Below, piece after piece: positions 11,301 through 64,000 of a stretch of DNA of 64,000 nucleotides. Location: NCBI GenBank assembly GCA_027604705.1, contig JADHYV010000073.1, forward strand, positions 32,623-96,622, read 5' to 3'. Numbering within the stretch: position 1 is the first letter of the stretch; the number at the start of each line of letters is the position of its first letter. The DNA is from Allomyces arbusculus. Lineage: Eukaryota > Blastocladiomycota > Blastocladiomycetes > Blastocladiales > Blastocladiaceae. The notes under the pieces were generated by a model. That model was given only the letters and a program-made list of their open reading frames with translations, was not told the DNA's origin and ran no database searches. Made by a program: the position numbers and the translations under genes.

Positions 11301-13253
11301 CGGACGGAGGATGGGTGGGGGACTGCCAGCGAAGCTGGATCGAGGTGGAGCGTGTTTTTGTTCGAGAACCTGCAGGCTACTCAACGTGCTCCTGGAGTGC
11401 ATGGCGCGCCATGGTGCACCCCGCATTTCGCGGTGTATGAGGGCAGGCACGTCTTGTGCACTGTCGGTTCGGCGTGCGGGGGAGTGCGATGCGGGGGAGT
11501 GCGATGTGGGGGCGGCGACGTCGGGGATGCGTGACCGCACGTCGCCATGAGTGTGGCCGCTGCTGGCACGGGCACGCTGCGACTTGCGGTGATCAGCTTC
11601 CACTTCACGTCGTTGTGCTCCGTCTTGCACGGCTCCGTCGTCCTTGTCATTCCGCTTGCGCGCTCCACCTCCTTGCTGCGAGCTTCTTGCTGGGCCCTTG
11701 CATTATTTTTTGTTGTTTCTCGTGATTGTTCCCGTTCTTGCCGTTTCATTTTGGCGTGGGCCACTTGCACGATCATCTCTGGAAAAACTGACCGTGTTTC
11801 GCTGTTTTTCTGCCCTCTCTTGCTCTCCTCCCTTGCACTGACCGTTTGTGCGACCCTGGCGGAACCATGACTTGCGCGTGCGCGATGATGGCCCACTGCC
11901 GCCAATCGTCGTGGCCCACTGTTGCCTGCAAACGTGCAAACGAACGTGCGCCGACCGACGACGACCTCGGACTTGACCTCGCCGCCGCCATCACCGGTGC
12001 CTCGCCGCCGCGCCGTCCGCCTGGCCGCGCCTTGTCACGGCCCCGGCCCTTCGACCGTTCATGATCATTTTGCGGGGGATTCTGCCGAACAACCCCACCG
12101 TCGACGCCGCTGTGCGCCCCAATGACCTGTCCTGTCTGTCCGTGCGTACGTGCGTGCATGGATCGTGGTCTGGTTGCGTGCGACGGTCGTGTTGGCGTGC
12201 ACGTCCCCGTGCCCGCGATTGCGCACCGCCGTGATGTCGACGATGGTCCGTACCCCTGCTGCCTCCGTTTGCATTTGCCTCTCGCCCGGTTGCATGTCGA
12301 CTGACCACCGGTCGGGTGCGCGTGACGGACTTCCATAGGCATTACGCTCGCTGGCCTTGCTGGCAACGTCGCATGTCGAGGACACGCCAATGTGCTCACC
12401 GCGCCTGACCGCGCCTCCTCTCTGGGCTGGCCGTACCGCTCGCCGACCACTCTTCCTGCCGCTACCCGCTGTGGTGGTCGTCGTGGCGTGCACCGTGTCA
12501 CGCACTAGGCCGCTTGACACTGCCACCGTCGCCCGACTGTCGGGGACCGTCTCACCCACCTGTCCGACCCGTCGCGGCTGTTATATAGCGGCTGCCCGCG
12601 CCGCGCCACAAGCCCAACCCTCCCCGCACTTGGTCGTCTTGTCTCTCGCTCGCGCTCCCGTCCGCAGTGTGATTTGATTGCCGCGTGCTGCTTCCGACCT
12701 TCCATTTTTCTTCCTTGCCACGCACCTTTACCTTGTGCACCAAGCTCATTTGGATCGGATTCCGTACGTTTGGCGGTCGGCGAGCTCGAAACGCAAGAAG
12801 CCCAAGGCAAGCCAACCAACGCAGGCAGGTACGCCCAGATTTGTTTCTTCCTTCGTATGACATGCCACACATCAGTCGCGCGGTCAACAAGGGCAACAGG
12901 CCGCTCCTTGTCCTTGTCGCGATCTGATCTGTGCGCGCGACCGACTCGCCCTGAAATGGCATATATGAACTGCTGTGCTCACTTGTGGTTGCCCCCGCTC
13001 GTCCTTCGCCCTCAACCCTGCTCGTGCTTCCCTAACCTATCGTGCGCATATGCCCTTGCGTTCCCGTCGGCCCGCAATCCGTTGCACGACCACGCCACGA
13101 CCACCACCGCTGCGCGCGCTCGTCCGTCCCGGTAGCTGTCCAAAATCACAGCGCATTCAGCCATAACCTCCCCTGTGCGTGCGTCTGATCTTCGGCCACG
13201 CTCTCTCTCTCTCCGGCTCCCGGCTCCGCGAACCACGCACGCACCCCAATACC
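8361..13253. other. long stretch with no supportable gene
   Basis: Nearly 4.9 kb has many open frames on both strands, but none has protein-like composition or convincing splice partners. TATA-like motifs occur near 10755 (CTATATATC) and 12581 (TTATATAG), and a (CT)n microsatellite lies at about 13200-13213. The downstream part probably contains the promoter and a long 5' leader of the WOPR factor. Long leaders with upstream ORFs are common for fungal master regulators. Confidence 0.45.
12581..12588 (+). promoter_or_regulatory. TATA box candidate for the WOPR gene
   Basis: TTATATAG sits in a GC-rich setting about 670 bp before the WOPR start codon, followed by a pyrimidine-rich stretch that could hold the transcription start. 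If used, it implies a leader of roughly 640 nt. Motif only. Confidence 0.3.
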
Positions 13254-15614
13254 ATGGCCCCACCCGCATCTACGCCATCGTCCATGTCGCGCTCCTCGGC
13301 GCCGCGCGTGCCTCCGCCATTGCCCGTCACGTACCGCGGGTACTTGGCCACGTTCGAGGACGCGCTCTACCTGCTCGAGGCGTGCCGCCGTGGCGTGCTG
13401 CCGCGCACGACCAAGCGGCTCTCGACCGACGAGAAGCGGCGCGCCGTGTTCCATGGTGCCATTTACCTGTTTCTTGAGGAGGAGGTCCGTCGGCATATAT
13501 GCCCCCTGCTGTCCAATGAATGCATGCCTGTCGCACCCGACTGACACACGCATTTGACACACGAATGTTCACTCAATAGAGCGGAATCAAGCGGTGGACC
13601 GACAAAGTGGTACGCAGTTTTTAATCGTCCCTTTATCAATGACTCGAGTGCGGTGCACGCGTCGCCCGACGACACCCGCATGCCAAGGCGACCGACGCCG
13701 CCCCCGCACATTGCACATGCACCGCGGGGAACGACGCGGCGTGATGGCATGGGCATGCTTATGCGCAACGGTCACGGCCGTTCCGGCTCTCTGACCGCGT
13801 GGCATGCGCGGTGTGGGCTTGCGGCGAGCCGTGCCGACGGCGCGGGCACGCTTCCAATTTCTTGATGCGCGCTGATCATGCTTGGCTCGGCACCCTAGGA
13901 CTGGTCCGCGTCGCGCATTGCTGGCCAGTTTCTGATCTACCGCGAAATCCATAACCCGGCCGCGGTCAACTCGAGTAAGGATACCAGCGCAGCCAAGGAC
14001 GCCAGTACCGCCGCAATCAACCCGGCGGCGCTCCCGGCCACGCCCACGTCCGTGTCCGCCGCGGCGACGCATGTGCCCTGCGACGCGTCCGACGAGGACG
14101 AGGTGTCGCTCGCGCCGTCGACGGCGTCGTCGTTGGCCGTTCCCGCGAAACTGACGACGCCGGCATGCGCCATGGCACGCAAGAACGGGTTTGTCATCAA
14201 GCCCAATGGGCTCATCAAGCGCACGATCTCGCTGCAGTGCGACGGCGCCACGCACCACATTGTCTCGTACTGCTTCCCGGACCAGGTCGACGACTTGCCG
14301 CGGCCCAGCATGGACACACGGCTCGCGCACCTGCCATTACCCGAAAGCGTCCAGCCGCTGCTGAAAAAGTCGTCGAGCGGTGGATCGAGCAAGTCGAGCC
14401 AAGCAGGAGGTACCGCAGGACCACTGTCGTCGTCGTCGGCCGATGGCCGGCTGCGTCCGATTGCATGTGGGGGAAGTAACGCCGCGACGCCGCTCGCGAG
14501 CCCCATGATGACTCCCGACCACGGAACCGCGTCGTTTGCCGACGTGGCCGCGATGCACGACATGATCCTGCACCAATTGCACCAGGCGCACCAGGCCATG
14601 GATGCGAGCACGAGCCCGATGCTCGCGCCGCCATGGTCGGGACCGTCGTCCATGTCGTCGCTCGCATTGCCGCCACTCTACGGGCCCACATCGACTATGC
14701 CGTTGGACTCACCCGCACTCATGGACGTGGACATGACCATGGCCGCAGCGACTGCGGCCGCCTTGGCTGCCGCATCGGCACTGCAAGGATCGGCGCCAAT
14801 GACGCCGCTTCCGGACATGATGCCGCTCGCGCCGTCGACGGCCACGTCGTTGCTGTGCACGCCGCCATCAACGTCCGCATCGCCGACGGCCAACCTGTGG
14901 GAAATGATCGCGTCGGCGCCCTCGGTCTCGCATCCGCCGTCGGTCGGGATGCCGCCACAACGGTCATGGACGGGCGAATCCATGTCGAGCGCGGCCCCAT
15001 CGCTCTACTCGCCAAAGCTTGGCGACGCCATGGCGCACGCCGTGTCGTGCTCACCCACGATGATGGCTGTCGATAGTCCCCCACTCGAACCCGACTTTGC
15101 TACGATTGTTGCCGCGGCGCACGCCGCCGCAGCAGCCATGCAACACTCGCCGGCACCCACGACCATGTCCTCGAGTCCCGGCGGCGCTCACTGGCCCGAC
15201 GCGCCGCAACCGATGCATCTCGACACGTACCCGGCCGAGTCGGGCATGGACGACAGTACCGCTGCCGTGATTGCGGCCGCCGCGTGTCTCGCGCGCGAGC
15301 TCGTCGCTCTTCCGCCGCCCATGGGCAGTATGCCGGCGACACCGACCGCGACCACGTCGCCCGCATGGCACGAGCCGGCGTCATACCACCAGTGGAATGG
15401 GCACGCGACGACGTCGCCGCCCGCACACCAGTTCTGGCACGGGGCGTCCGCGTTTGCGCCAGAGCAGCCGCCGTTTGCTGCCGATCCGCACGGGATGGTC
15501 GGGCTCGGGATTCAAGCGCCAGTGCCGGTGCACGCGCCGATCAATGGTGGTGCCGCTGCGTATTTCGGCGAGGACGCGTACGGCCGGCCGCACCCTGTTG
15601 CACCGGCACCGTAA
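13254..15614 (+). CDS. WOPR (Gti1/Pac2) family transcription factor
   Basis: Three exons (13254-13484, 13580-13609, 13899-15614) encode 658 residues. Residues 25-105 form WOPR box a: YRGYLATFEDALYLLEACRR, HGAIYLFLEEE, then SGIKRWTDKV from a 30-nt microexon, then DWSASRIAGQFLIYREI. Box b (GFVIKPNGLIKRTISLQC, THHIVSYCF) starts near residue 183 after a ~75-residue Ala/Ser-rich insertion. WOPR proteins (Wor1, Ryp1, Gti1, Pac2, Sge1) are fungus-specific DNA-binding regulators of morphology and development, acting in the nucleus. The remaining ~430 residues are Met/Pro/Ala/Ser-rich low complexity, as in typical activation regions. RWTDK replaces the usual RWTDG. Both introns have CTGAC/CTGAT branch motifs. 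Confidence 0.92.
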
Positions 15615-15944: not shown

Positions 15945-18743
15945 TCACATTAACGGATTCGACGATGCGCGCTTGCCCGGCTGCCCCGCGGCCGCACCCC
16001 CACCCGGGCCTGCCGCCACTCCACCTTGTGCCGCTGCCGCTGCCGCCGCCGTCGGCGGCGAAATTCTAGCCAAATCCACGGCCCGGCGCATGTCTAACAA
16101 CCTTTCCCAAGCGCCATGCGGCCCCTTCACTCTCTCCTCGCCATCCACCGGGTCCGTTGGTCTCGGTGCGCCGACATCAAACCCGAACCTTACCAATGAT
16201 CGCGGCCGTTGCCGCTTCGTCGGCTCCAAATGGTGCATCTGTAACAGTTTCGACCGAAACGCCCACTGCCTGATCTTGGGCATTGCGAGAGTGAACGGGC
16301 GCGACGCGAGCACCGCCACGGCGCGGGTGCGCGTCGCGTCGTCGAGCTGAAGCGCCGCGTCGAGGAGGTCCGCGAGGTCGACGGCGTCGGCGTCGGTGAA
16401 GAGCGAGTGCGGTGGGGCGTCGCGCGCGTCTGTGGCCGGGGCCGCGCCGGACGCGTCTGCGGGCGGTGGCGGCGATCCGGGTGGTGGCGTGAACCCGTTA
16501 TCGGCCGCGACCGCGCGGTAGACGCGGCGAAACGTCTTTTTCCGATCTTCCATGGCCTTTTGCAGTTTTTCGGAGAGGATCGGGTTAGTCTCGACCGCCG
16601 GGTGGTTGAGCGTGTTGAAGAAATCGGCAGGCGCGAATTTCTTGCAGCCTGCGTCCTTGCTGCCGGGTCCGTCGCGGCGCAGCGGCTTGTCGGCGTCCGA
16701 TGTTGGCGACGCGTCGGATGCGGCGGGTGCGGGCGCGGTCGGCGGGCGCGGCGGCTTGAGGGGACCAAACAGGTACTCGACGAGCTGTTTCTGCGACTCG
16801 ACGAATTGCCGGATGTAGTGGTCGCGGTTCGTGCACAGGGTGGACCGCATCGCGTCGGCGCTGAGGAGCGCGTCGAGCAGTTGCTGCCCGAGCACGTCCG
16901 GGTCGGTCGAGGCGGTGTCGGTCGTGAGCAGTTCAGCTTCGGAGAGGGGCGCGACCGTGCTTGTCGGCGGCGGCGACCGGATCAGGTCGGCCAGGTCGTT
17001 GATAGTCGGCGAGAAAACGGTGCCGTCCGGCATGGTTTCGGCGCCGAGCGATGGCAGCGGGGCAACGACAATGGGGATCGGACGGTGGTGCAGTAGCTCG
17101 GATGCTGGAGGGACGAATCCCGGAAAAACACTCGTCGCAGGAGCAGGAGCGGGGGGAGCGGGAGCGGGAGCGGTCGCTGGTGCTGGTGCAGGTGCTGGTG
17201 TTGGAGGAGCGGGTGCTGGTGTTGGAGGAGCGGGTGCTTGGAGAAAAGTTGTTGCGGGTGCTGGTGCAGGTGCTGGAGAGCCGAACGTCGGAAGAAATGG
17301 TGCCACCGGTGCAGGTGCAGAAGAACCGGGTGCCGAGAGAAACGTCGTTGCTGGTGCAGGGGCCATAGTAACAGGTGCCGGGAGAAACGTTGTCGCGGGC
17401 GCCGATCCCGCAGTTGGTGGGATCGCCGGCGAGGGCGCATGCGACGGCGTGCCGAGCGACATGCTCGACATGCTGGACCGGCCCGACGTCAGCGACACAG
17501 GTGAGGGCAGACTCGGGGAGGCCAAAGCGCCAGGGAACGACCACATCGACGCGTTTCCAGCTGGCCCAGTTGCCGCTGATATCGCGCTAGACATCGAGGA
17601 CCGCGGCACAGACGATGCACTCGCCGTCGACGGCGGCGCGGGTGGAGCAATCGACGACGAGGAAGTCTGCGCGAATGGGGTTCCACTAGCCGACGTGACC
17701 GTGGGTGGGGGCGCAGTCGACGTTGTCGCCTCGACCATCGTCAGCTCCGAATCAAACAATCTCGGCATTGGGTCCGACGGCCGCAACGACAGTGGCGTGC
17801 CGTACCCCAACATGGTCAGTGGTGGGAATGGTCGCATCAGATCGAGCGTTGGGTCCCACAGATGCTTCAAGGCCGAGTTTGGTGGCGACGGCGCATTGCT
17901 TGCGCGCGCGCGCGGTGGGGATCGGCTCGGTCTCGGTCGTGGCGGCGACGATGACGGAATGGCTGGCATCGGCACCGCGACCGGGATTGTGGCGCGCGTT
18001 GGTGAGGCGTCGCTGTCGCGGCGCCGCTTGCTGCTCGTCGACCGGGGCCGACTGGTGGTGGCGCTGGCCATGCGGCCGCGCGCGTCGGCAGGAGCTGAAC
18101 CGGTGGAGGGCGTCGCGGATGCGGCTGCCGATGCGGCCGCGCGGCGGTTGGTCATGACGCGCCATCTAATGCCGTGAATGGTTGGTAAGCATCATGCAGG
18201 TGGCCTAAGCATGGCTCGATTGCATTTCAACACGCACTTGTCCTTCAAGTCCACCTAAAAGTGCCAACGGACGACACAGAACAACCCATTAGATCAGAAG
18301 CACGGTTGTTGCAGCGAAGAGGGTCGAGTGAACGTACCGCGGTACGATGCGGGTCAAAGACAAATTCCCGGTCCGACAAGATGATTGACCACGCGCCTAC
18401 GCCATACTACGATGAAGCCCATCCACTCTCGTGTCAGCTCCACCTGATGCTCGTTCAAAAGCGTGATTCTTGCACGTGGGTCACGCACCTTCCGCACGCC
18501 CGCCAGGAGCGCACCCTCCTCCTCGGGAGTCCACTTTTTGCGTTTCCGCGGCGGCTTCTTGGTTAGTGGTGCCGGTGCCGCGGTACTTGCAGCAGCTGCA
18601 GATGGTGTCGAGCCGGCGGAAGTCGTATCATTTCGTGATGCAGCAACCATACTCGACGAGTCTTCGTTTGCCATTGCTCGAGCAGCGCCTTCGACGAGTG
18701 TCGGCTGCCGATTTGCGTCAATGGTCGCGTTGTCGAGCGTCAT
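15945..18743 (-). CDS. telobox Myb/SANT protein A (telomere-repeat-binding-like)
   Basis: The minus-strand exons are 18489-18743, 18338-18406, 18238-18254 and 15945-18165, closing in frame at about 853 residues. They assemble one Myb/SANT domain: KKWTPEEEGALLAGVRK, then YGVGAWSIILSDREFVF..HRTA, then VDLKDKWRVMTNRR (about residues 70-121). VDLKDKW is the telobox signature of TRF, Taz1/Tbf1/Teb1-type and plant SMH/TRB proteins that bind TTAGGG-like repeats. The long middle is Ala/Pro/Ser-rich, including tandem PAPAPA-type repeats (genomic about 17130-17400). A C-terminal block shared with protein B holds DFFNT (near 626) and DLLDAALQLDDATRTRA (near 710). MTLDN is the first ATG upstream of the Myb exon. 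A nuclear DNA-binding role is inferred; telomeric binding is untested. Confidence 0.78.
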
Positions 18744-19432
18744 GTTTGCAGCGGAACAAGACTGGGGCCGGCCGCGCAGTTTTGAAGGTCGTACGCCGAG
18801 CTCGCGGGTCAACGTTCGATGATGTTCTTGTCGAGCGGTTGACGTGGCGAGGTGCGATTGTACCCGGCACTACGTCGCGCGCGGTGGGTGGAGAGTGCAG
18901 GCCGAGTGCAGGCCGAGTGCAGGCAGTGGGCGCACTCGTCCTTGATTGTAGCTCCGGCGCCCTTAAAGAGCGTGGTGACGAGGTTGATGGCGTCGTCGTG
19001 GTGGTGATGGCGGCCTTGGCGGCGCCCAGTCGATTCTGCCGGACGTGCCAGGCGGTTGCCGTGGCTACGCCACCCAAGCGAACCCTGGCTCCATTTCACA
19101 CGTGTCTGGGGCCAAAACAGATGCTTCTTCAGCCCTCATCAACCCATCTACGATGCTTGTGTGGATCCCGTGGGCACTTGCCAACCCTGGTTCCTGCTCG
19201 GCATGATCTCGAACCTTGCGGCGAACCAGTGCGCTGGTCGGCATCAATCTCAACTAATCCTGTTTGCCAAAAACTCATCCCAACGACCTGACCAGATCAG
19301 GCGAAAGCTGACACGACAAGAAAAGAATAAATGCTGTGTTCCCCGTTCACTCTACACTTGTCCGATCCCGTTCGATGCCGCAAAAATGGCACTGCGATAC
19401 CCTGCAGCTCAGCAGACCGGCGCACTCCCGAC
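18744..19432. other. gap between the telobox paralogues
   Basis: This is the 5' flank of telobox gene A and the 3' flank of gene B. It holds a short tandem repeat (three copies of GAGTGCAGGCC-like units near 18890-18925). Minus-strand open frames here lack protein-like features except for short Ala/Ser-rich stretches, so I leave them unannotated. Confidence 0.45.
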
Positions 19433-21131
19433 CTACACGGACCCACTCCCCATCGACACCGAAACGCCTTGCGTCGCGCGCCACGCCGCGCGCCGCTCGC
19501 CCCGAATCTGCCGCAACAATTGCGCGGGCCCCTGCCTGACCTGCCGCCAGACATCATCCTCGACATCCTGCTCCATCGCCTTCACCTCTTCTTCGCCACC
19601 TCCAAACCCAAAGCCCTCACGCGGATGCTCCACTATCCCCACATTCGACTCGCGCGGCAATCCGGCCTGACTCGGATCCTCGTGGTTGCGCGTTGCGATT
19701 CCCGCAAACGCGCGCGCCGAAAGGACCGCCATGGCCCGGTCGCGCGTCCAGTCGTCGAGCCGCAGCGTCGCATCGAGGAGTTCCGAGAGCGCAACGACGT
19801 GCGCGTTCGAATGGTGCGCATCAGCGTCGTCGCCCACCGCGTCCGGGTTGCGGGACGCGAACATGCGCAGGAGGTCCGGTGGGGCGAGTTTCTGCGTGGC
19901 GACACGCGGGTGGTACCGCGTGTTGAAGAAGTCGTGCGCGGGTGGCGGGGCGGGGGTGTCAGGTGTGGACGGCGCGGAGCGTGCACGACCGAATTGTTGC
20001 AGCCGCGCGTAGGCGTTGCGCGCGGCCAGGGCGCGGAGAAGTTGTGCCTGGTGCATCGAGTTGAGCACGCGGTCGCCGAGCGCCGGGTCGACATCGGCGG
20101 GTGCGGCGCCGTCAACGGCTATGGCGGTCGCCGAGTCATTGCCGAACAACACTACATCTGTGGCCGTGAACACCGGATCGTCGAGCAGCGTCGGGCTCGC
20201 GGCCGCAACGATCCCCGCCACCAGTTCGGCCGAACCCGGCCCAAACGTCCATGGTCCCGGCGAGGTTCGAATGAACGGTTCTTCCGCGGGCAGGACGCTG
20301 TCCGTGATCTGCTCGTTCGGGAAGACGGTGAGCGCCGGGCTCGTGGCCGACAACCACGCGTCCAGGTCGATGGCCGGGATCCCGAGGTCCGGCAGGGACG
20401 CGTCGGCAGCAGCGGGTCCGGACGCGACGCGCACGTGCGGTTGTATGACGGCTTCGCGCGCTATTGGTGGCGGCGACGGGTCGCGGCGCCGCTTTTCAGC
20501 GGGTGCAGCGGGCGCGGCGGGAGGGAGGAGGGCCTTCATGGCTGCGAGCGCGGCGGGTGGGAGAGCGCCCTTGGATTTCGGGCGGCGGGTCGTGATTACG
20601 CGCCATCTGGTGGACATGGTCAGGAGGCGTAATAAGAAGCGGGACGGGGCGAGTTGGGGTAAAAACGTACTTGTCCTTGAGATCAATGTTCTACAACACC
20701 GGTGGTCGTCAGCTGAGGTTCAGAGAAACATCGCCCCAATGCACAACCTGGGTGGCGGACGGACGTACTGTACGCTGCGCGTTGAAGTGCAAGTCGGGAT
20801 CAGCGAGAATCTGGGCCCACGAGCCGATGCCATACTATACGAGAGTTGCGACTGGGGGGTCAACGCGTGCTCGTAGTCCAATACAGTGCGGTGCCGCATT
20901 CACAACCACAACCAGCTCGCGCTGACGGCACATCGTGTCGTCCCCGTTCACGATGCTAAAGTTCGTTCGCCCAGCACGTCGGCTCTCGTTAAGTACCTTT
21001 TCCACACCCGCAATCAGTGCAGCCTCTTCGTCCTTGGACCATCGAATACGCCGGCGCGGACCTGGTCGCGCCGTTGCTGGTGCGGCCCCGTCCCCCGAGT
21101 TTGCGGGAGCCGCAGATGGCGTGTCGGTCAT
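19433..21131 (-). CDS. telobox Myb/SANT protein B, paralogue of A
   Basis: The minus-strand exons are 20997-21131, 20769-20834, 20671-20690 and 19433-20606, closing in frame at about 464 residues. The Myb/SANT domain is RRRIRWSKDEEAALIAGVEK, then YGIGSWAQILADPDLHFN..RT, then NIDLKDKWRVITTRR (about residues 27-82). Introns interrupt it at the same places as in protein A: after the Lys of GVxK, after the RT(A) turn, and inside the Trp region of LKDKW. The C-terminal half repeats the family block: DFFNTRYHP (near 297) and ALSELLDATLRLDDWTRDRA (near 344). It lacks the long Pro/Ala repeats of A. The final ~60 residues are less certain because a further intron could change them. The start is the first ATG upstream of the Myb exon. 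Confidence 0.75.
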
Positions 21132-35800: not shown

Positions 35801-38800
35801 TTGGGTGGAAGCCGCTCATGCAGAGCTGGCTCACGACCACGGTCAAGAACGCACAGCATGCCGCGACGATCGAGGCCATCTTCCTCGACTGGCTCGACCC
35901 GTGCATCGACTTCGTACGCAAGGAGTGTGTCGAGCTGTGCGAGACGCTCAACTCGAACCTGGCGCGGTCGTGCATGAACATTTTCCAGGGCCAGTACGTG
36001 GACGCGAAGCAGCCGACCAATCCGCAGCTGCAGGCCATGATGATGCTTGCGATCGTGTGGAGTGTCGGTGGCGCGCTCAACCCGGCGGGCAAGACCAAGT
36101 TCAACGTGTTCTTCCGCGACTTGTCGGGCAAGACCGTGACCGAGTGCCCGTTCCCAGCCGAGGGCGCCGTCTACGACTACACGTTTGTGAACGGCCAGTG
36201 GCGGCTGTGGACCGACCAGTTGACGGACGTGCCAATTCCGACGTCGGCGAGGTTTGCCGACATCTTGGTCCAGACGATCGACACGATGCGGTACTCGGCA
36301 TTGCTCAAGTTGCTTGCGCGTATCAACAAGCACGTGCTGCTCGTTGGGCCCACGGGCACGGGCAAGACCATGTACATAAACGACACGCTCAACAAGCTGC
36401 CGCCCGAGCAGTGGGTCAACATTTTCTTGACGTTTTCGGCGCAAACGAGTGCGCGGCAGACGCAAGAGTTTCTCGAGGCCAAGTTTGACAAGCGGCGCAA
36501 AGGCGTCTACGGCCCGGCCCTGGGCAAGCAGGCCATTGTCTTTGTCGACGATCTCAACATGCCGGCGCGCGAAGTCTACGGCGCGCAGCCGCCGATCGAG
36601 CTGCTGCGCCAATGGATGGATCACGGCGGGTGGTACAATCTCGGCGACAAGTCGTTCCAAGAGTTTATAGACCTGCAATTTGTCGCGGCCATGGGTCCAC
36701 CAGGTGGTGGGCGCAACCCCGTCACGTCGCGGTTCTTGCGGCACTTCAACTCGATTGGCATCAACGCCTTTGACGACCCGACGCTCAACAAGATCTTCTC
36801 GGTCATTCTTGACTGGCACTTCAAGAAGGGGTTCCAGGCCGCGATTCAGACGCTCGCTGCGCCGATTGTCGAGGCGACACGCGCCGTCTACCGCGCGTCC
36901 ATGGACTCGCTGCTCCCGACACCGACCAAATCGCATTACACGTTCAACTTGCGCGACTTTTCGCGCGTTGCGCAGGGAATCTTGCTCAGCTCGCCTGAGC
37001 GGTTCACTGACGCGCACAAGGTGATTCGGCTTTGGGCGCATGAGGTAATGCGCGTCTTTTACGACCGTCTCGTCGACGACGGCGACCGCAAGTGGTTTTA
37101 CGAAATGATTCAAAAGACAACGCAGTCGGCGTTCCAGGTCGACTTCCACGCGGTGCTCAAGGCCTACGATACGAACGGTGACGGCAAGGTTGACGAGGGC
37201 GAGATTCGCAGTCTCATGTTTGGCGCGTTTGGCGAGTCATCCAAGAAGCTCTACGACGAGATTGAGAGCATCGACGCCATGACAGATCTGGTCGACCGCG
37301 CTCTCGGCGAGTTCAATGCGCTCAGCAAGAAGCAAATGGACCTTGTCATGTTCCGGTTCGCGATCGAGCACCTGATTCGCATCTCTCGCGTGCTGCTGCA
37401 GCCGCAGGGCAACATGGTGTGTGTTGGCGTCGGCGGGTCCGGGCGCCAGTCGCTCACGCGGCTCGCTGCGTTCATTGCGCAGTGCGAGCTGTTCCAAGTC
37501 GAGATCACCAAGAACTACGGCACGACCGAATGGCACGATGACATCAAGAAGATTATGAAAAAGGCCGGCGGGGAGGGCAAGCCGACCGTGTTCCTGTTCT
37601 CGGATACGCAGATCCAGCAAGAGTCGTTTCTCGAGGACATCAACAACCTGCTCAACTCGGGTGAAGTGCCCAACATTTACGCGGCCGACGAAAAGGCCGA
37701 GATTATCGAGCTCGTGCGCGCCGAGGGCATGAAAAAGAAGGGCGCCGAGGATACGGCGACGTTGTTTGCCTTCTTTGTCGAGCGGTGTCGTGAGCTGCTG
37801 CACGTTGTCCTGTGTATGAGTCCAGTCGGCGACGCATTCCGCGCTCGGCTGCGCAAGTTCCCGTCGGTTCGCCTCATTTCTCTTTGGTGTTGCTCAGTTG
37901 ATTTCTGGCGGCTGATCCTCGAGTTTGCCCCTACAGATCGTCAACTGCTGCACGATCGACTGGTACCAGCCGTGGCCCGACGATGCTCTCGAAATGGTCG
38001 CGTCCAAGTTCTTGCAGGACGTGGAAATGGAGGATCAGGTGCGCGTCCAGGTCGTGCAGACGTGCAAGTCGTTCCACATGGGGGCGCGCGACTTGTCGGA
38101 CCGGTTTCTGACCAACTTACGGCGGCACAACTACGTGACACCCACGTCCTACCTCGAGCTGATTCGCACCTACAAGTCGCTGCTCTCGCAAAAGCGGCAA
38201 GAAGTGTCGAAACTCAAGTTCCGCTACGTCAATGGGCTCGAAAAACTCGACTTTGCGGGCAAGGCCGTGTCCAAGATGCAGGTCGATCTTGAAAGTCTGC
38301 AGCCGCAACTCATCTTGACCAAGGAGGAGACGACCAAGATCATGGTCCAGATCGAAAAGGACAGCAAGGACGTGAACGAGACGCGTAAAGTTGTGTCGGC
38401 CGACGAGGCCGTGGCGAGCAAAAAGGCGGCCGAGGCCAAGGCGATCAAGGACGAGTGCGAGGCCGAGCTGAGTGAGGCTTTACCGGCGCTGCAGGCGGCG
38501 CTCTCGGCGCTCGACACGCTCAAGCCCAACGACATTACCATGATCAAGAGTATGAAGAGCCCTCCCGCGGGTGTCAAACTCGTTATGGAGGCGGTGTGCA
38601 TCATGAAGGACGTCAAGCCCGTCAAGATCCCGGACCCAGCTACGGGCAAGAAGGTCGAGGATTTTTGGGGCCCGTCCAAGACGATGCTTTCGGACCTCAA
38701 GTTCCTGGACTCGCTCAAGGCCTACGACCGCGACAACATTTCGCCGGCCATCATGAAGGTGATTCGGTCCAAGTACATTGACAACCCCGAGTTTGACCCG

Positions 38801-41800
38801 GAAAAGATCAAGAGCGCGTCGTCGGCCGCCGAGGGTCTGTGCAAGTGGGTGCGCGCCATGGAAATGTACGACCGTGTCGCCAAGGTGATCGCGCCCAAGA
38901 AGGAGGCACTCGGCAAGGCCGAGGGGGAGCTCAATGAGACGATGAAGAGTCTCGAAGAGAAACGCGCGACACTCAAGGCCGTCGAGGACAAGATGGCCGC
39001 GCTCGAAAACAACTTCAAGGCCATGACGGCCAAGAAGGAGCAGCTCGAGGCGCAGGTCGAGTCCGTGTCCAAGCAGCTCGTGCGCGCCGAAAAGCTGATT
39101 GGCAGTTTGGGCGACGAGCAGGAGCGGTGGACGAAATGCGCGGCCGACCTCGAAATCAAGTACGCGTCGCTCACGGGCGACGTGCTCATTTCGTCCGGCA
39201 TCGTGGCCTATTTGGGTGCGTTCACCAAGCTCTACCGCGACGAGTGCGTGCAAGCATGGTCGGCCGAATGCAGGCAGCGCTCGATTCCGTGCTCCGAGAC
39301 GGTGACCTTGTCGACGGTGCTGGGCGAGCCCGTCAAGATTCGGTCGTGGACGCTCGCGGGTCTGCCCAACGACTCGTTCTCGATCGACAATGCCATCACC
39401 ATGTCCAACTCGCGACGGTGGCCCTTGCTCATTGACCCGCAGGGCCAGGCCAACCGGTGGATCAAGAACATGGAAAAGGCCAACTCGCTCCAGGTCATCA
39501 AGCTCACCGACTCGGACTATTTGCGCACGCTCGAGAACGCGATCCAGTTTGGGAATCCGGTGCTGCTCGAAAACGTGGGCGAGGACCTGGACCCGGTGCT
39601 CGAACCGCTGCTCGCCAAGCAAACGTTTAAGCAGGGTGGCATGGTTTTCATTCGGCTCGGCGACTCGACCATCGAGTACTCGCCCGAGTTTCGGTTCTAC
39701 GTGACAACTAAGCTGCGCAACCCGCACTACCTGCCCGAGCTCTCGACCAAGGTCACACTGCTCAATTTCATGATCACGCCCGAGGGACTCGAGGACCAGT
39801 TGCTCGGCATTGTCATTGCCAAGGAAAAGCCCGAGCTCGAAGAGGCCAAGAACCAGCTGTTGCTCCAGTCGGCCGAGAACAAGAAGCAGCTGCAGGAGAT
39901 CGAGGACAAGATTCTCGAGGTGCTGTCGTCGAGTCAGGGCAACATTCTCGAGGACGAGACGGCCATTCAGATCCTAGCTTCGTCCAAGGTCTTGTCCAAG
40001 ACCATTTCCGAAAAGCAGGCGATTGCTGACAAGACCGAGATCCAGATCGACGGCGTTCGCGCAGGGTACAAGCCGATTGCTGCGCACTCGTCAATTCTCT
40101 TTTTTTGCATTGCCGTGCTCGCCAACGTCGAGCCCATGTACCAGTACTCGCTGCCGTGGTACATCAACCTGTTCATTAGCTCGATTGAGCGGTCGGAAAA
40201 GTCACCCGACCTCGACGTTCGCCTCGCGCACCTGCGCAAGCACTTCACCGAGTCGCTCTACCTCAACGTGTGCCGGTCGCTGTTTGAAAAGGACAAGCTC
40301 GTCTTTTCGGTGCTACTCACGGTCACGATTCTCAAGGCCGAGGGCAAGCTGGTCGACGACGAGTGGAAATTCTTGCTCGTCGGTGGGCTCGGCATGGAAG
40401 CGGCCGATGCGCGGCCCAATCCGGACCCGTCGTGGATTTCGAACAGCACGTGGAGCGAGCTCAACATGCTCAGCAAGATGCCGGCACTCGCCCAGTTGCC
40501 GGTCGTGTTTGAGGAAAACCTTGCCGACTTCCGCAAGTTGTACGACGCGGCGAGCCCGCACGAGATCCCGCTGCCCGGTGGTCTCTCGACGGCGTTAACC
40601 ACGTTCCAACGGCTGCTCGTCCTGCGGTGCCTGCGCTACGACAAGCTCGTCCCGGCGCTGCAAAACTTCATCATTGAAATGATGGGCCGGCGGTTTGTCG
40701 AACCACCGCCGTTTGATTTGCCGGCGTCGTTCACCGACGCGAGCCCGACCACGCCGCTCATTTTTGTGCTGTCGCCGGGTGCTGACCCGATGACGGCGCT
40801 GCTCAAGTTTGCCGAGGACAAGATGATGAACGGCAACAAGGTCAATTCGATCTCGCTCGGCCAGGGCCAGGGCCCGATTGCCGCCAAGATGGTTGCCAAG
40901 GGCGTGAGCGAGGGTCTGTGGATTGTGCTGCAAAACTGCCACTTGGCCGTGAGTTGGATGACGGCGCTCGAAAAAATTTGCGAGGACCTGCGCCCGGAGA
41001 CGACGCACAGGGACTTTCGGCTGTGGCTCACGAGTTACCCAAGCGAAAAGTTCCCCGTCACGATCTTGCAGAACGGCGTCAAAATGACCAACGAGCCGCC
41101 TAAGGGTCTGCGCGCTAACGTGCTCAACAACTTCTTGACCGATCCGATCAGCGACAAAACGTTCCACGAGGGCAGCTCCAAGCAGCAGGTCTTTGAGCGC
41201 ATGTTGTTTGCGCTTTGCTTCTTCCACGCTGTCGTGCAAGAACGGCGCATGTTTGGGCCGATTGGGTGGAACATTCCGTACGAGTTCAACGATACGGACC
41301 TGCGCATTTCGGCGCGGCAACTGCGGAACTTCCTCAACGAGTACAGCGAGACGCCCTACTCGGCGCTGATCTACCTGACGGGCCACTGCAACTATGGCGG
41401 GCGTGTGACTGACGACAAGGACCGTCGCACGCTGCTGTCGCTCCTCTCGCTCTACTACAACCGCAACGTGGTTGACCAGGACAACTTCGCGCTGTCGCCG
41501 TCGGGCAACTACCGGATCCCGCCGTCAACCAAGTACGCTGACTGCCTCGAGTACATCAAGCAGCTGCCGCTCGAGACCAAGCCCGAAGTGTTTTCGCTGC
41601 ATGAGAACGCCGACATTTCCAAAAACCAGCTCGAGACGGAGAACTTACTCAAGACGGTGTTGCTCACGCAAGAGTCGGCGTCGGGCGGCGGCGGTGGTGG
41701 TGGGCAGTCCGAGTCGCTCGTCTACGATGTGGCCACGGACATGCTCGGTCGGCTGCCGCCGTTCTTTGACTTGGCCGCGATCCAAGCCGCGTACCCGGTG

Positions 41801-42550
41801 TCCTACACCGAGTCAATGAACACGGTGCTGCTGCAAGAGTGCATTCGGTTCCGCAACCTGCAGGTGATCGTGTCCGACTCGCTCAAGAACATTCAAAAGG
41901 CGCTCAAGGGTCTCGTTGTCATGTCGGCCGACCTCGAGGACGTGAACCGGTCGATCCAGACGGGGCGTATTCCAGCCATGTGGGCGGGCAAGTCGTACCC
42001 GAGCATGAAGCCGCTCGGGTCTTACTTTGCCGACTTGCTCGCGCGACTCGCCTTTTTCCAGTCGTGGATCGACAAGGGCCCGCCGATCGTGTTTTGGGTG
42101 TCGGGCTTCTTCTTCACGCAGTCGTTTTTAACGGGCGTGCTGCAGAATTTCGCACGCAAGTACACGATCCCGATTGACCAGATTGCGCTCGAGTACCAGG
42201 TGCAGGCGACCAAGACGGCGGGCGTGCGGCCTGAGGACGGCGTCTACGTGAACGGGATCTTCATCGAGGGCGCGCGGTGGGACGTGGGGCAGCGCAGTTT
42301 GGTCGAGTCGCTGCCCAAGGTGTTGCACGACCAGCTGCCCGTGATTTGGCTCAAGCCGGGCGAGAAGTCCAAGTTCGTTGTGGAGCGGTCTTACGATTGC
42401 CCAGTCTACAAGACGCTCGCGCGCCGTGGGACGCTGTCGACGACAGGCCACTCGACCAACTATGTTATGAGCATGCGGCTGCCAAGCCAGCACCCGGAGG
42501 AGCATTGGATCAACCGCGGCGTCGCGTGCGTGTTGTCGCTCAGCACGTAG
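29898..42550 (+). CDS. axonemal inner-arm dynein heavy chain (DNAH7/3/12 type)
   Basis: Nine exons (29898-30086, 30162-30297, 30355-30547, 30608-30698, 30770-31275, 31343-34933, 35002-35677, 35752-37866, 37937-42550) close at 4036 residues, the length of single-headed inner-arm dyneins. The tail and linker occupy ~1-1370. P-loops are AAA1 GPAGTGKTE (~1383), AAA2 GEATSGKT (~1662), AAA3 GPTGTGKT (~1993) and AAA4 GVGGSGR (~2352). Exon junctions restore invariant sequence, for example [20 protein letters not shown] and [15 protein letters not shown]. An EF-hand loop ([12 protein letters not shown], ~2265) lies between AAA3 and AAA4. The stalk coiled coil and microtubule-binding domain follow (~2560-2900), and a Gly run (~3750) interrupts the C-terminal part. 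It powers flagellar beating of zoospores. The weakest splice is the first donor (GTCGGT). Confidence 0.95.
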
Positions 42551-43702
42551 GCGAGGAAGAGGACTGGCTTGTCGTGGATTGTGGAGGCGGGTCGAGGTGG
42601 ACTTGGATCTGGCTGTGAAAGAGACTAGACATCATATTTACTCGTGGACGTGGCACGCTTGCCGTTAAATGCATGGCCGTTATGAATCAGTGCTGATCCC
42701 TCAATGCCGCCTCCATCCCTGGTCATTTGAGACCGTCTGGAACGGAGGCAAGAGGTAAATACCAACACGGCCTCCCATATTGGCCCACAAACAAGATTTC
42801 GAAAGCGGTGCATCCATTTGAAGCGATGTAATCTGACGAGCAACAGACACGGTAAACTTGCATTGCATTGTACTCAGAAATGCATAGCTCAAGGGCCAAC
42901 AACAATGTTTTACGATCCAAGATCCAACAAGCGTCGATCCTCGCAGCACAGATGCTTGGATGCAGGGGTGGCCAAGGGCGCCAGACTCGAACTCTCCTCG
43001 ACCATCACCCAAGCGGTTAAGTCATCATGACCAGGGCACACCAAGGATGGTTGCTCGCTGGCTGCACTCGACACTTGATCACGGCCTCGATGCACCGCGG
43101 CTTGCCACCCCCTGGAAAGAGCACCAAGGATGGTCGCTCGCCGGTTACACCAGACTCTTGATCAACAGTCTGCATATTCCGCAGCATGCCACGAGGCCCT
43201 GGAAGGCCAGAGGTAATATTCGACCCCTCGAACCGACTGGTGGAAACAAGACCCAACTCACGATATCTTGCGATATGAAGGAAGGAAAATAACCTTGCAC
43301 ATTTGTGCGACTTTAAGTGCCACGCTCGCCCACAGTGGACTGCTTGTGATGACTGAACGGAATACTTCCAAAACCTTCCCGACTCACGTCTTTGAACCTC
43401 AATTTCTCGCCAACCAGCAATCGGATCCATTCGCCTTTGCACCATGGCAGGGCATGGTTTTGGTCCTTCTGATGCAAAGCAGCAATGGTTCAAAAGTTTC
43501 ACACAGGCCAAAACGCGATTTTGTGTTTGGGCCGATGAAAATTTTGGAAGTGCCCCAATAAATGACTGGAACGGGTGCGTTGTGGGGCCCGCAGCGTTCA
43601 TGACCTTGCAAGAGAACGACACGAGCTACCCAGGAGATCATAAATGATCATGCGCAAGGACGAGCCCAAAGTCATCATGCATAAAGCCAGGATAGGCGCA
43701 AT
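42551..43702. other. gene-poor, AT-richer region
   Basis: 3' flank of the dynein gene. It has a short direct duplication (ACCAAGGATGGTTGCTCGC near 43038 and ACCAAGGATGGTCGCTCGC near 43122). A 67-codon plus-strand ORF at 43444-43647 has protein-like composition (WFKSFTQAKTRFCVWADE, INDWNGCVVGPAAFM) but no recognised relative. tRNA-like box sequences near 42970-43030 do not fold into a complete tRNA. Confidence 0.4.
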
Positions 43703-43883
43703 TTGGGCATCGCCAAGCAGAACTGCAGGACAAGGGACACCCACGCGGCGCCTGCGTTGCTCTGGACACCGCTCTGGTTGCAAAAATCGGGATGACAGAA
43801 AATGTGCCTTGGCGGCACTTACAGCTGTCAAGCTATAAAGAACAAAAACTACACATGATCTTAGCCAAGAGGCCTTCGAGGAT
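43703..43883 (-). ncRNA. U2 spliceosomal snRNA
   Basis: The minus strand reads ATCCTCGAAGGCCTCTTGGC, then TAAGATCA, closely matching the conserved 5' end of U2. GTGTAGTTTTTGTTCT covers the branch-point-recognition region, where most U2 RNAs have GTAGTA followed by TCTGTTCT. Stem IIa (AGCTTGACAGCT) and IIb (GTGCC-GCCA-AGGCAC) follow. The Sm site ATTTTTG falls about 100 nt from the 5' end, as in human U2, then stem III and a terminal stem-loop whose arms begin GGGTGTC and end GATGCCC. The 3' end is approximate. U2 base-pairs with intron branch points during splicing. The 5' end is set by the alignment with known U2 and by the TATA element 32-41 bp upstream. Confidence 0.88.
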
Positions 43884-44328
43884 CTGTGGTCTTCATCGAG
43901 GGCAGGACGGCCAGCCTTTTATAACTACCCGAGCCAGCGCTTTGTTATGACATGGTTTGGCCCAAGTCGTTTGTGACGCGTTGATTCGTCGTCGCAACCG
44001 CGTCGATTTGTCGTCACAGCCGCGTCGATTTGATTACGCTGAGGCCCTCACCATATCTCATCTCCCCGCTGATTCACGCCTTCGCTGTGCAATGATGGGG
44101 CCCCGGGCAAGTGGTGGAACGACAGCAGTGCCATGCTCGACAAGGCAAAAGAGACAATTAACGACGAAACAGTAGAAACGGCGAAGGTACGAGACAAGAA
44201 TTATATTGACAAGGACGCGCGACCAAGGCGCAAAAGCAGAGGTATCAGAAACCGAAAAAACAAACCCATCCATTGACCAACACAGGCCGATCACCTCAAT
44301 TTTATCTTCCTTAACCAGCACGCTATCG
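43884..44328. other. U2 promoter side and 3' flank of the repeat-protein gene
   Basis: Contains the U2 core promoter. No other gene is seen. Three imperfect CGTCGTCGCAACCGCGTCGAT-like units occur near 43985-44035. Confidence 0.45.
43915..43924 (-). promoter_or_regulatory. TATA element of the U2 gene
   Basis: TTATAAAAGG on the minus strand lies 32-41 bp upstream of the predicted U2 5' end, the expected place for a core promoter element. Confidence 0.65.
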
Positions 44329-46820: not shown

Positions 46821-49800
46821 TCAGTTCTTACGGAACTTCTTCCCCACATTCCCGCCGGCGGCCCCCTTGGACGCGCTCCGCTTCTTCCCCGCCCCCTGCA
46901 CCGGCGCTGCCTGGTCCTTCTTCGGCTGCGGGACCTTGACGTCGTCCTTTTGCGGCTTTGCCGCGGCCTTGACCGAAATCCGGCCCGACGCACCGAGCCC
47001 CCGCGCCTGAATCCCAGCCGTCGCGCGATCCCACTCGGCGTCGGACCCGGCAATCGCATACTCGCTCAAATCAATCGCAGAAAGCAACTCCTTTTGCCGG
47101 TCGCGCAGTACGGCCGACGCCTCATCGCCCGCCTCAGACATTTCGTCGTCGAGGTGCTCGCGCAGGGGGTCCCACGCCGCGTCGTCGTGCAGATCGCGGC
47201 GCGCGCTCGACGACGGTTCGGCCTCCTCGGTCTCATCCGCAACAGGCGCGGGCGTGGCGGCAGGCGCGGGTTTCTGCAGCGTCGGCAGCGAGTCTTGGAT
47301 CGCGGCCGCCTGCACGGCATTCAAGTACCCGTTGAACTTGCGCATGATCTTGAGGAACAGCGCCATGAGTTGCGATGCCGGCAGGCTGTACTCCTTCTCC
47401 AGGTCGGTGATCGACTTGCGCTGCAGACCGAGACCAAGCAACAGCGACTGCTGCAGACCCGACAACTCGACCCCCACCGCATCCGCGGCCCCACCCGCCG
47501 TGGCTCCCGACCCGGGGAACCCGAGCCCGCGCGTGAAATACGTATCGGCAAGCGTCGGGACCAAGTCGAGGATCACGTGGTAGTCGAGCAAATTGCCCGC
47601 GTACGAGTCGAGCCGTTTCAAGTCGTGCGGGGTGAAGAGGTCGTCGACGGTCGTCGCTGTCAGGCCGCGGCCCGTGACCTGCGCCGCGTTGGCGGGCCCG
47701 CGCGTTGCGGCATCCAAGATCGAAATGCACGTGACGGTATCAAACTTCTTGAACTCGTACGCGAGCAAGTGGAGGAACCGGCGGCAGAAATCGCGCGAGA
47801 ATTGCGGCACCCACGCGGCGCGCGCGTCATTCGCGGCATCCAGGGACTTGACCATGACGCACGTGTGCTCGCCCGTCAATTCGTTGGCCGTCTGTCGCAG
47901 GTAGAGCGGGAAGAAGCCGCCCTTTTTCCAGAACTTGAACAGCTGCCGCGTGAGCCCAAACGAGACGCCGAGCCAATCGAGCCGCTCGGGTTTACGCTGT
48001 GAGAGCCGCACGAGCATCGGTGGCATCTGGTCGGCCGACCGGACCGCAATGTCCTCGTTGTGCAGCGCGTCGTCCTGGTCCATGCCGTCGAGCGGCGAGA
48101 TGCGCGACGAGACATTCGGCACGGCGTCTTCCAGCAAGTCGAACGAGCCCTTGTAGTACTGCTCGAGCTGCTCGAGCGCGTGCGACCCGTACCCCATCCC
48201 CATGTAATCCGGGTGCGTGGCAATGCGCACGACTCGCGCACCCGACAATTGACCGAACCCGTCGTCCTGGAACTGCTGCGACATGCACCACGGGATCAGG
48301 TCGCCGTCATTGCGCACGCCGCGTGAGAGCGCGGAGCGAATCGACGACGCCGAAATCTGGCCTTCGAGACAGACTTGCAGCACGACCAGCGGTTCCGGCA
48401 AAATCTCTTCCTCGCCGTTGGTCGCGGCATACGCCGACGGCGGCGGGAGCAGGACGAACAAATGGTGCGCTGGCGCGTCTGACATGAGCTGCAGGTCGTT
48501 GGGTGTGTTCTTGTAGTGCGAGGCCACGTAGAGCGCCATCATGCGCTGCAAAAACGCTTCCGAGACGGGATGATGGGAGAAGAGCGTGTCGCGCGAGACG
48601 TAGTAGAGCTGGCACTCGGACGGGTGCGGGCACCCCGTGATCGTCTTGGACACGGTCGCGTCTAGGCACAGCAGACTGTTGAGCCACTTCTCAATCGCGT
48701 CGCCCTCGCCGTACCGAATCGGCTGCTCGAGCGCGACTTCGCGCAACGTGCGCTGCAATGGGTCCTTGGTTGAGTCAGCAGCCGCATTGTCGCCCGCGAT
48801 CGACGCCGACGCGGCCTGCTGCCGCAGCGACTGGATCAGCTTGAGCGACAGCGACCGACCCGTGCCTTCGTACCCGTGAATCGTCGACGCCATGAAAATC
48901 AGGTACGGGCCCATGAGCTTGCGCACCATGGGCAGCGGGATCGCGGCGGCCTCGTCAATCACGAGCAACTCGGCCTGCCCGAGCACGTGTGCGTCCTCGG
49001 GGTGGATGTACTGCACGGTCTGCCGGTGGTTGCGGAAAATGTTGATGCGAACAATAGCCTTGTTGAGTGCCGGGTTGGTCGACTGAACGAGATCGTAGTC
49101 GAGGTGCTCCTCGTAACCCAAGGCGTCGAGCCCTTTGAACACAAACTCGAATAGCGTCTTCAAGTTCTCGGGCGACGGCGAGGTCACGAAAATGTTCGAG
49201 TAACCGTAGGCGATGGCCGCGGCCATGGCGAGACCGAGCGCCGCCGATTTACCACGACCACGTGCCGCCGTGAGCGTGACGGTCGCGCGCAACGACTTGT
49301 CGGCAATCGCCTCAACAAATGTGAGCAACGCCTTGGCCTGGTCGCGGGTCATGGCGCAGTTGACGAGCGATCCAACGGGCTGCGTCTCCTTGAGCGATTC
49401 TTTCAAGTCGCGCAGTTCCTGTGCGGCAGGCGACTGGGCCTCGGCGAGTTCGAGGGCCTTGGCCGGGTCCATGCCCTCGTAGACAGGTGTCACGTCGCGC
49501 GCGCGCGAGAGCGGCAGGACGTTGAGTTCGTCGTCGACGACAAGGCACGACTCGCACCCGGCGAGCGACAGCAAGAAGCGTTCGTTGAACCGCGCGACCA
49601 CGTCCTGGTGCGACTCGGTGCGGTACCGAGAGTGTACGTCCATGGCCATCGTGTAGAGCTGGCGCAGCGAGGTCATGGTTTTCAAGAGCAGCACGATGAT
49701 GCCGCCGCCTTCGACAGTCTCGACGGTGCGGGCGAGCAAGTTGGGCGTGAGCGCTTCAAAGTCCTGCAAGACGCACATGCCGTACGTGTTGCCGAGAATC

Positions 49801-50252
49801 TTGTGCGTTTCCTTGTAGTACGTGTAGCGAATATCGGTCGAGGAGATGAAGAGCTCAAACGGGTCGTCCTTGTCGGCGTCGCGCGTGCCGTTCTTGATCT
49901 GCTTCTTGATAAGCCGCATGCGCTTCTTGCGGTGCGACGTGAACCCGAGCTCCTTCTTGTAGCACCAGAGCACCGAGGGACGCTTGTTGATGCGCGCCTT
50001 GGCCAGGAACAGGTGCAGGTTCACGACCTGCTCGCGGCCGCGGTCGCCGACAATCACAAACATGCTGCGGTGGTTCTGTGCGATGCCGTTCTGGAGCATG
50101 ATCGGGATGCGCGGGTCCACTTTCTTGCGCTGCTGCTGGTGACGTAGGTTCTTGCCGCCGTCAGTGGGGGTGCCGGTGTTGGCGGCGCCATCTTGGGGTT
50201 GCGCGGTGGGCGCGGCCGGCACCGACGCGTCGGTCGATTTCTTGGACTTCAT
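46821..50252 (-). CDS. KRE33: RNA cytidine acetyltransferase (NAT10/Kre33)
   Basis: A single exon of 1143 residues, slightly longer than NAT10 (~1025). It starts after a ~45-residue variable N-terminus with VDPRIPIMLQNGIAQNHRSM, the family's opening block. The helicase-like domain has P-loop AARGRGKSAALG (~327-340) and DEAAAIPLPMVRKL (~427). The GNAT domain has RIATHPDYMGMGYGSHALEQ (~672-691), binding acetyl-CoA. The tRNA-binding C-terminal region follows, ending in a Lys-rich nucleolar-type tail (GKKRSASKGAAGGNVGKK). It makes N4-acetylcytidine in 18S rRNA and, with Tan1/THUMPD1, in tRNA-Ser and tRNA-Leu, and is needed for 40S subunit assembly. All catalytic motifs appear intact. BUD23, another 18S modifier, lies 25 kb away, with no sign of linkage. 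Confidence 0.96.
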   Translation of the reverse strand: MKSKKSTDASVPAAPTAQPQDGAANTGTPTDGGKNLRHQQQRKKVDPRIPIMLQNGIAQNHRSMFVIVGDRGREQVVNLHLFLAKARINKRPSVLWCYKKELGFTSHRKKRMRLIKKQIKNGTRDADKDDPFELFISSTDIRYTYYKETHKILGNTYGMCVLQDFEALTPNLLARTVETVEGGGIIVLLLKTMTSLRQLYTMAMDVHSRYRTESHQDVVARFNERFLLSLAGCESCLVVDDELNVLPLSRARDVTPVYEGMDPAKALELAEAQSPAAQELRDLKESLKETQPVGSLVNCAMTRDQAKALLTFVEAIADKSLRATVTLTAARGRGKSAALGLAMAAAIAYGYSNIFVTSPSPENLKTLFEFVFKGLDALGYEEHLDYDLVQSTNPALNKAIVRINIFRNHRQTVQYIHPEDAHVLGQAELLVIDEAAAIPLPMVRKLMGPYLIFMASTIHGYEGTGRSLSLKLIQSLRQQAASASIAGDNAAADSTKDPLQRTLREVALEQPIRYGEGDAIEKWLNSLLCLDATVSKTITGCPHPSECQLYYVSRDTLFSHHPVSEAFLQRMMALYVASHYKNTPNDLQLMSDAPAHHLFVLLPPPSAYAATNGEEEILPEPLVVLQVCLEGQISASSIRSALSRGVRNDGDLIPWCMSQQFQDDGFGQLSGARVVRIATHPDYMGMGYGSHALEQLEQYYKGSFDLLEDAVPNVSSRISPLDGMDQDDALHNEDIAVRSADQMPPMLVRLSQRKPERLDWLGVSFGLTRQLFKFWKKGGFFPLYLRQTANELTGEHTCVMVKSLDAANDARAAWVPQFSRDFCRRFLHLLAYEFKKFDTVTCISILDAATRGPANAAQVTGRGLTATTVDDLFTPHDLKRLDSYAGNLLDYHVILDLVPTLADTYFTRGLGFPGSGATAGGAADAVGVELSGLQQSLLLGLGLQRKSITDLEKEYSLPASQLMALFLKIMRKFNGYLNAVQAAAIQDSLPTLQKPAPAATPAPVADETEEAEPSSSARRDLHDDAAWDPLREHLDDEMSEAGDEASAVLRDRQKELLSAIDLSEYAIAGSDAEWDRATAGIQARGLGASGRISVKAAAKPQKDDVKVPQPKKDQAAPVQGAGKKRSASKGAAGGNVGKKFRKN

Positions 50253-50611
50253 TTGCCGGAGGTGCGGGCGCGTGAAGATGGTAGTGCTCGTGCGAGGATT
50301 TCCTGACAGCTCCGCGTGATCATGGCCAAGGAAAAGAGCGATGGTGAGCAGGCGGGGAGAGCGTTCTGGTCACTCGCCGTCAGGTGACGTGTTGCAGTTC
50401 TGTTACAAGATTGTTGCCATGGTCTTTTTGACGGCTTTTGATGTGGTTCACTCCCAAGTCGCAACAACACGCAGCACAACACCACCTCGACAGTTTCTTG
50501 GAGAGAAACGACCTCAATCTCTTAACAGACGGTCTACATGTTCAAATATACAGGATGCCAAACAACACCGTCCGTGCCGGACTCAACTGTGACAGGAAAT
50601 CTGACCAGCAA
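50253..50611. other. 5' flank of NAT10
   Basis: About 360 bp between the NAT10 start and the 3' end of the small membrane protein, both on the minus strand. No TATA box or gene seen. Confidence 0.45.
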
Positions 50612-63876: not shown

Positions 63877-64000
63877 GGGCGGGGGCGGGGGCCGCGGCGC
63901 CCCGCCCGGCGCCCCCCCCCCGGCGCGGGGCGCGCGGGGGGGGGGGGCGCGGCGCGCGGGGGGGGGCCCCCGGGGCGCGGCCCGCGGGGGGGCGGCGCCC
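63877..64000. other. G/C-only terminal run, probably not real sequence
   Basis: The last ~124 bases contain no A or T, with long G and C runs, unlike anything else in the window. This is typical of failed base calls at a read or contig end. The coding frame of the SNF2/RING gene is lost on entering it. Confidence 0.8.

Follow-up and report, generated by a model that had tools for sequence, protein, structure and literature searches.

A tandem pair of spliced telobox Myb genes sharing a C-terminal block in a zoosporic fungus

Gene organization and splicing

The 64,000-nucleotide stretch of Allomyces arbusculus DNA analysed here (contig JADHYV010000073.1, positions 32,623 to 96,622, hereafter the window) carries on its minus strand two adjacent genes, A and B, each encoding a protein with one N-terminal Myb domain of the telobox class and a C-terminal block common to both. 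The two proteins have the same general layout, that is, an N-terminal Myb domain, a long middle region without recognised domains (rich in proline, alanine and serine in A) and a C-terminus predicted to be helical. In the direction of reading, gene B precedes gene A and 689 bases lie between them. Splicing and translation gave the following structures.

Gene A, 18743-15945, minus strand; exons 18743-18489, 18406-18338, 18254-18238 and 18165-15945; 853 amino acids
Gene A intron 1, 18407-18488, minus strand; 82 nucleotides, phase 0
Gene A intron 2, 18255-18337, minus strand; 83 nucleotides, phase 0
Gene A intron 3, 18166-18237, minus strand; 72 nucleotides, phase 2
Gene B, 21131-19433, minus strand; exons 21131-20997, 20834-20769, 20690-20671 and 20606-19433; 464 amino acids
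Gene B intron 1, 20835-20996, minus strand; 162 nucleotides, phase 0
Gene B intron 2, 20691-20768, minus strand; 78 nucleotides, phase 0
Gene B intron 3, 20607-20670, minus strand; 64 nucleotides, phase 2

Once spliced, both genes read open to a single terminal stop with no internal stop, and retention of any one of the six introns leads to a stop at residues 87 to 139. All six introns begin with GT and end with AG, five of them measuring 64-83 nucleotides and one 162 nucleotides. Their 5' splice sites read GTGCGT, GTACGT, GTGCGT, GTACTT, GTACGT and GTACGT, and every intron contains at least one branch-like YTNAY sequence located about 19 to 35 bases before its end. A similar intron of about 67 nucleotides (GTACCT...CTCCAG, placed by eye) is found in the neighbouring methyltransferase gene. 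When A and B are aligned, their introns fall at identical codons with phases 0, 0 and 2 in both genes, which argues for the duplication of one intron-bearing parent gene. An initial annotation of this DNA had proposed that the genes arose in this way and that three introns at equivalent codons must be removed in each to rebuild the Myb domain; splicing and alignment bear out both proposals and, by their gene structure, A and B are tandem duplicates.

The telobox Myb domain

Regarding the Myb domain, its pieces are distributed over four exons in each gene.

Gene A telobox Myb domain, 18141-18548, minus strand, introns inside; about residues 66-122; Pfam PF00249, expectation value (E) 4.5e-7
Gene B telobox Myb domain, 20582-21056, minus strand, introns inside; about residues 26-82; Pfam PF00249, E 1.2e-6

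PF00249 exceeds its cut-off in both spliced proteins; Pfam finds one Myb stretch per protein and, at E<=1, no match outside it. The same annotation had warned that a prediction ignoring splicing would miss the domain and, indeed, all seven unspliced open reading frames (ORFs) carrying Myb pieces are without a Pfam match at E<=1. The three helices of the fold are covered, the alignment to TRF1 spans the whole domain, and A and B are identical at 30 of 52 positions within it.

Among solved structures compared by sequence in the PDB, the top match is human TRF1 for A (1.8e-10, level with SNAPC4 at 1.8e-10) as well as for B (8.7e-8, followed by SNAPC4 at 1.2e-7), further matches being TRF2, Terfa, plant telomere-repeat proteins and CHD1, with Tbf1 lower down. 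A two-row profile built from A and B returned TRF1 (5e-12), TRF2 (3e-10) and SNAPC4 (7e-10), and also matched the Tbf1 chain 8x6d (E 7e-5).

The recognition helix reads VDLKDKWR in A and IDLKDKWR in B, both proteins retaining the TRF-type lysine, aspartate and arginine (V-x-LKD-x-WR) that are described as critical in TRF1 and TRF2 (PMC8867601). Compared with TRF1, A and B possess three additional residues ahead of the third helix; according to the literature, insertions in the Myb domain of Ustilago Trf2 are located away from the DNA (PMC7744550). Over the 57 codons compared between A and B, the nonsynonymous rate (dN) is 0.35 and the synonymous rate (dS) 1.62, a dN/dS of about 0.22, and at the sequence level the domain is under constraint. 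The Pfam match, TRF1 as top solved relative and the LKD-x-WR helix in both proteins place the two domains in the telobox class by sequence, as first annotated. A loose third-helix pattern run over the six frames of the window retrieved A, B and one chance-like match on the opposite strand at 18347, a pattern that helices split by introns would escape.

The shared C-terminal block and adjacent motifs

Beyond the Myb domain, A and B have in common a C-terminal block, a motif upstream of it and, possibly, a third element.

Gene A shared C-terminal block (LLDA.L.LDD.TR.RA.AVL), 16293-16382, minus strand; residues 709-738
Gene B shared C-terminal block, 19706-19795, minus strand; residues 345-374
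Gene A DFFNT motif, 16578-16625, minus strand; residues 628-643
Gene B DFFNT motif, 19886-19933, minus strand; residues 299-314
Gene A possible third shared element, weak (DP..LG..L helix), 16794-16904, minus strand; from residue 535
Gene B possible third shared element, weak, 19982-20089, minus strand; from residue 247, a long predicted helix with a predicted local distance difference test score (pLDDT) of about 62-73

The 30-residue block (VDLADLLDAALQLDDATRTRAVAVLASRPF in A) is identical at 19 positions between the two proteins (ungapped E about 2.6e-8), making it about as alike as the Myb domain (19/30 vs 30/52), and BLASTP of the two C-terminal pieces against each other gives an E of 6e-10. 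For the whole C-terminus the local alignment score is 112, compared with 84 for the best of 1000 shuffles in 20-residue windows and 62 for the best of 1000 full shuffles. Its core scores 107, and controls drawn from other ORFs of the window stay at or below 61 (319 pieces) and, in the reverse direction, at or below 47 (146 pieces). Full-length BLASTP with the low-complexity filter recovers the Myb domain (3e-18) and the DFFNT motif (0.036) and does not recover the 30-residue block. With this identity and these shuffles and control pieces, the block annotated initially withstands scrutiny and, from sequence comparison, is truly common to A and B. The upstream motif, DFFNTxxHPxVxT, shows a moderate similarity (9 of 16 residues identical, E about 0.009), and the third element, upstream of DFFNT, is weak, with a local score of 43 that has no control of its own. 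A basic KRRRD stretch present in both proteins is not significant (E about 34), and a shared nuclear-localisation block, not significant either, was dropped.

The four C-terminal pieces match no Pfam family up to E 10, in a search that filters out most matches weaker than about 0.1. NCBIfam, searched with the C-terminus of A only, returned one chance-level match (0.32), and comparison with the PDB by sequence gave only weak matches, A reaching an E of 0.11 and B one of 0.5 at best. A two-row C-terminal profile found six PDB matches, five of them chains of herpesvirus glycoprotein B (best E 0.0035) and one a glycosyltransferase (0.32); the likeness to glycoprotein B covers columns 53-130, mostly a proline/alanine linker including DFFNT, and we judged it to be compositional. 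Searching the C-terminal pattern in viral contigs and in prokaryotic genome contigs produced 30 and 80 pattern matches, respectively, with no relative among them, success having been improbable from the start in both collections. The block is therefore "undescribed", as the initial annotation put it, only relative to Pfam, sequence comparison with the PDB, NCBIfam for A, and the open literature searched.

In the predicted structures, the C-terminus is all-helical in both proteins at low confidence, the mean pLDDT of the two models being 40.9 and 52.0, values that do not suffice for searching by fold. Amphipathic helices were considered as a proof of pairing and rejected, only one of six segments having a hydrophobic moment reached by fewer than 5% of shuffles. 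The DFFNT motif has a dN/dS of about 0.40 with a dS of 0.87. The dS of the C-terminal block (0.38 over 30 codons) is far below that of the Myb domain (1.62 over 57 codons), a difference which could reflect later gene conversion or codon bias at high G+C.

Genomic surroundings

Convergent with gene A lies an ORF (13899-15611, plus strand) of the Gti1/Pac2 family (Pfam 4.6e-14), a fungal family also named WOPR. Upstream of B, the methyltransferase gene has a WBS_methylT Pfam match (BUD23 type). Further along, positions 37919-42547 (plus strand) encode the C-terminal part of an axonemal dynein heavy chain, the remainder of which is probably held by the long ORFs from 31122 on. Its closest solved relatives are axonemal inner-arm chains, with DNAH3, DNAH7 and DNAH12 within the top six (among the best 60 of 76 rows, the first of which has a mislabelled chain name). 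A fungal Gti1/Pac2 gene together with an axonemal dynein points to a flagellated fungus and fits the zoosporic setting suggested at the outset. The window also contains the following features.

U2 spliceosomal RNA gene, 43698-43885, minus strand; full length, 85.7 bits
NAT10/TmcA-type RNA acetyltransferase, 46827-50369, minus strand
Trypsin/PDZ protease with PDZ-like repeats, 51842-54517, plus strand
G-rich repeats of 22-28 bases, nearly perfect, 63925-64000, at the window end

On both strands taken together, TTAGGG occurs once (13030-13035), where 6.8 occurrences are expected from dinucleotides and 2.6 from 5-mers. An avoidance of TTAGGG was dropped as a candidate observation, the 5-mer expectation being 2.6 against one observed; the single occurrence gives no hint of nearby targets.

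Proposed function and alternative explanations

With Myb domains of the telobox class, A and B probably bind DNA repeats resembling those of telomeres. The fuller proposal that we prefer, although the arguments on it are about evenly balanced, is that they are tandem-duplicated nuclear proteins that would bind duplex TTAGGG-type DNA and whose C-terminal helices would pair two chains. The third Myb helix would read the duplex repeats, and pairing of A with A, B with B or A with B would place two flexible N-terminal Myb domains on adjacent repeats, thereby standing in for the TRFH domain of TRF1 and TRF2 and for the second Myb of Tay1. Pairing would be the simplest mechanism, because one Myb domain binds weakly: high-affinity binding is reported to need two Mybs, and the single-Myb proteins TRF1 and TRF2 to act as homodimers (PMC4839565). 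At least one of the two proteins would probably be telomeric, and the other may have its role at promoters or in a different life stage. As for the C-terminal block, it might equally recruit a partner protein instead of pairing chains.

Several points weigh against this proposal. Binding, pairing, localisation and a telomere role are inferred. A TRF-like Myb domain does not always bind DNA, as illustrated by TERB1, in which this ability was lost (PMC8867601). SNAPC4 nearly equals TRF1 as a match of both proteins, CHD1 scores too and, for B, the Pfam model of CHD1 (5e-7) comes slightly ahead of the Myb model, while covering the first two helices only. Moreover, both structure models are poor, which leaves dimerisation to analogy. 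Finally, the dN/dS of the C-terminal block is about 0.63 (0.24/0.38), a weak evidence of constraint and, on so few sites, conservation between A and B is by itself no proof of strong constraint.

A serious, though minority, possibility is that A and B are promoter-bound transcription factors acting at short telobox sites, as described for Teb1 of Schizosaccharomyces pombe, with no main role at telomeres and with the proline-, alanine- and serine-rich middle serving as an activation region. According to published descriptions, the main part played by Tay1/Teb1 in fission yeast is that of a transcription factor (PMC7952879; PMC7744550), and the middle region of A is long and of low complexity; against this, the lone TTAGGG of the window forms no nearby cluster of sites, which could still exist elsewhere. 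We find it improbable that the pair consists of diverged Tay1-type proteins, or of their antecedent, with one of the two Mybs in each gene and a C-terminus equivalent to the non-Myb region of Tay1. Although an N-terminal Myb followed by a C-terminal non-Myb region is a feature of Tay1, each of A and B has only one Myb, and the three common intron positions imply a single-Myb parent for both. Moreover, Tay1 is reported from Ascomycota and Basidiomycota alone, on the basis of a screen that took in Glomeromycota and Mucoromycota and not zoosporic fungi (PMC7952879). More improbable still are ordinary Myb/SANT regulators whose likeness to telobox proteins is confined to sequence and whose targets are other DNA or just protein, as with the TERB1 Myb: the SANT/Myb domains of SNAPC4 and CHD1 score as well and a TRF-like Myb without DNA binding is known (PMC8867601), but A and B retain the three recognition-helix residues that TERB1 has lost, and their joint profile ranks TRF1 and TRF2 above SNAPC4.

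Returning to duplex-repeat binding with C-terminal pairing, it is rather unlikely, yet conceivable, that the pair represents a distinct protein family of zoosporic fungi that binds duplex telomeric DNA. Its C-terminal helical domain would replace TRFH as the dimeriser and its paralogues would split the work like TRF1 and TRF2, so that TRF and Tay1 would be joined by a third, independent solution. A telobox pair built differently, in a flagellated fungus, would supply an outgroup for the origin of TRF, Tbf1 and Tay1 and could indicate that the dimerising part of telomere proteins is exchangeable. The telomere proteins of non-yeast fungi are described as the subject of very few studies (PMC7952879). 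With three introns within a 57-residue domain, such genes are concealed from searches of unspliced ORFs. For the evolution of telomere proteins in early fungi, the pair offers an interesting starting point, with a predicted function.

Comparison with known telobox proteins

Human TRF1 and TRF2, the best solved relatives, resemble A and B in their single Myb domain and in the identical lysine, aspartate and arginine of the recognition helix, but their Myb is C-terminal, whereas it lies near the N-terminus in A (of 853 residues) and B (of 464). In the full proteins only Myb/SANT-type Pfam models match at E<=1 and no TRFH is detected, although a very diverged TRFH could escape. Tbf1 of yeasts likewise has a TRF-type Myb, as seen from the match of chain 8x6d, and is reported to resemble TRF1 and TRF2 in both TRFH and Myb (PMC7744550), unlike A and B, for which Pfam finds no TRFH. 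In Neurospora, a further Myb-type TTAGGG binder, Tbf2, has been described (PMC4650311). No literature on telobox proteins of zoosporic fungi appeared among the matches listed, most subscription papers lying outside the search.

Tay1/Teb1 resembles A and B in having TRF-like Myb sequence close to the N-terminus, in its long non-Myb C-terminal region and in lacking TRFH (PMC7952879). By its description it is nevertheless set apart, with two consecutive N-terminal Mybs where A and B have one each; it is known from Ascomycota and Basidiomycota, is considered to have arisen within fungi (PMC7952879) and, with two Mybs per chain, has been suggested to bind in monomeric form (PMC7744550). Plant TRB/SMH proteins also have a single N-terminal telobox-type Myb, accompanied by a central H1/H5 domain and a C-terminal coiled coil, and TRBs are reported to interact with themselves and with each other (PMC10167121). 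An H1/H5 Pfam match is absent from A and B at E<=1 and, compared with the C-terminal coiled coil of TRBs, their C-terminal helices are predicted at low confidence.

The initial annotation had regarded an N-terminal telobox as unlike the arrangement of TRF and Tbf1. The build does differ from theirs, being without TRFH and with a Myb that is not C-terminal, but an N-terminal telobox is not in itself new, Tay1 having two and plant TRBs one. Judged by sequence features, A and B fail at least one tested feature of each of the TRF/Tbf1, Tay1 and plant TRB builds. What is unusual is that a tandem gene pair combines one N-terminal telobox with a common, predicted helical C-terminus, neither TRFH nor H1/H5 nor a second Myb being detected.

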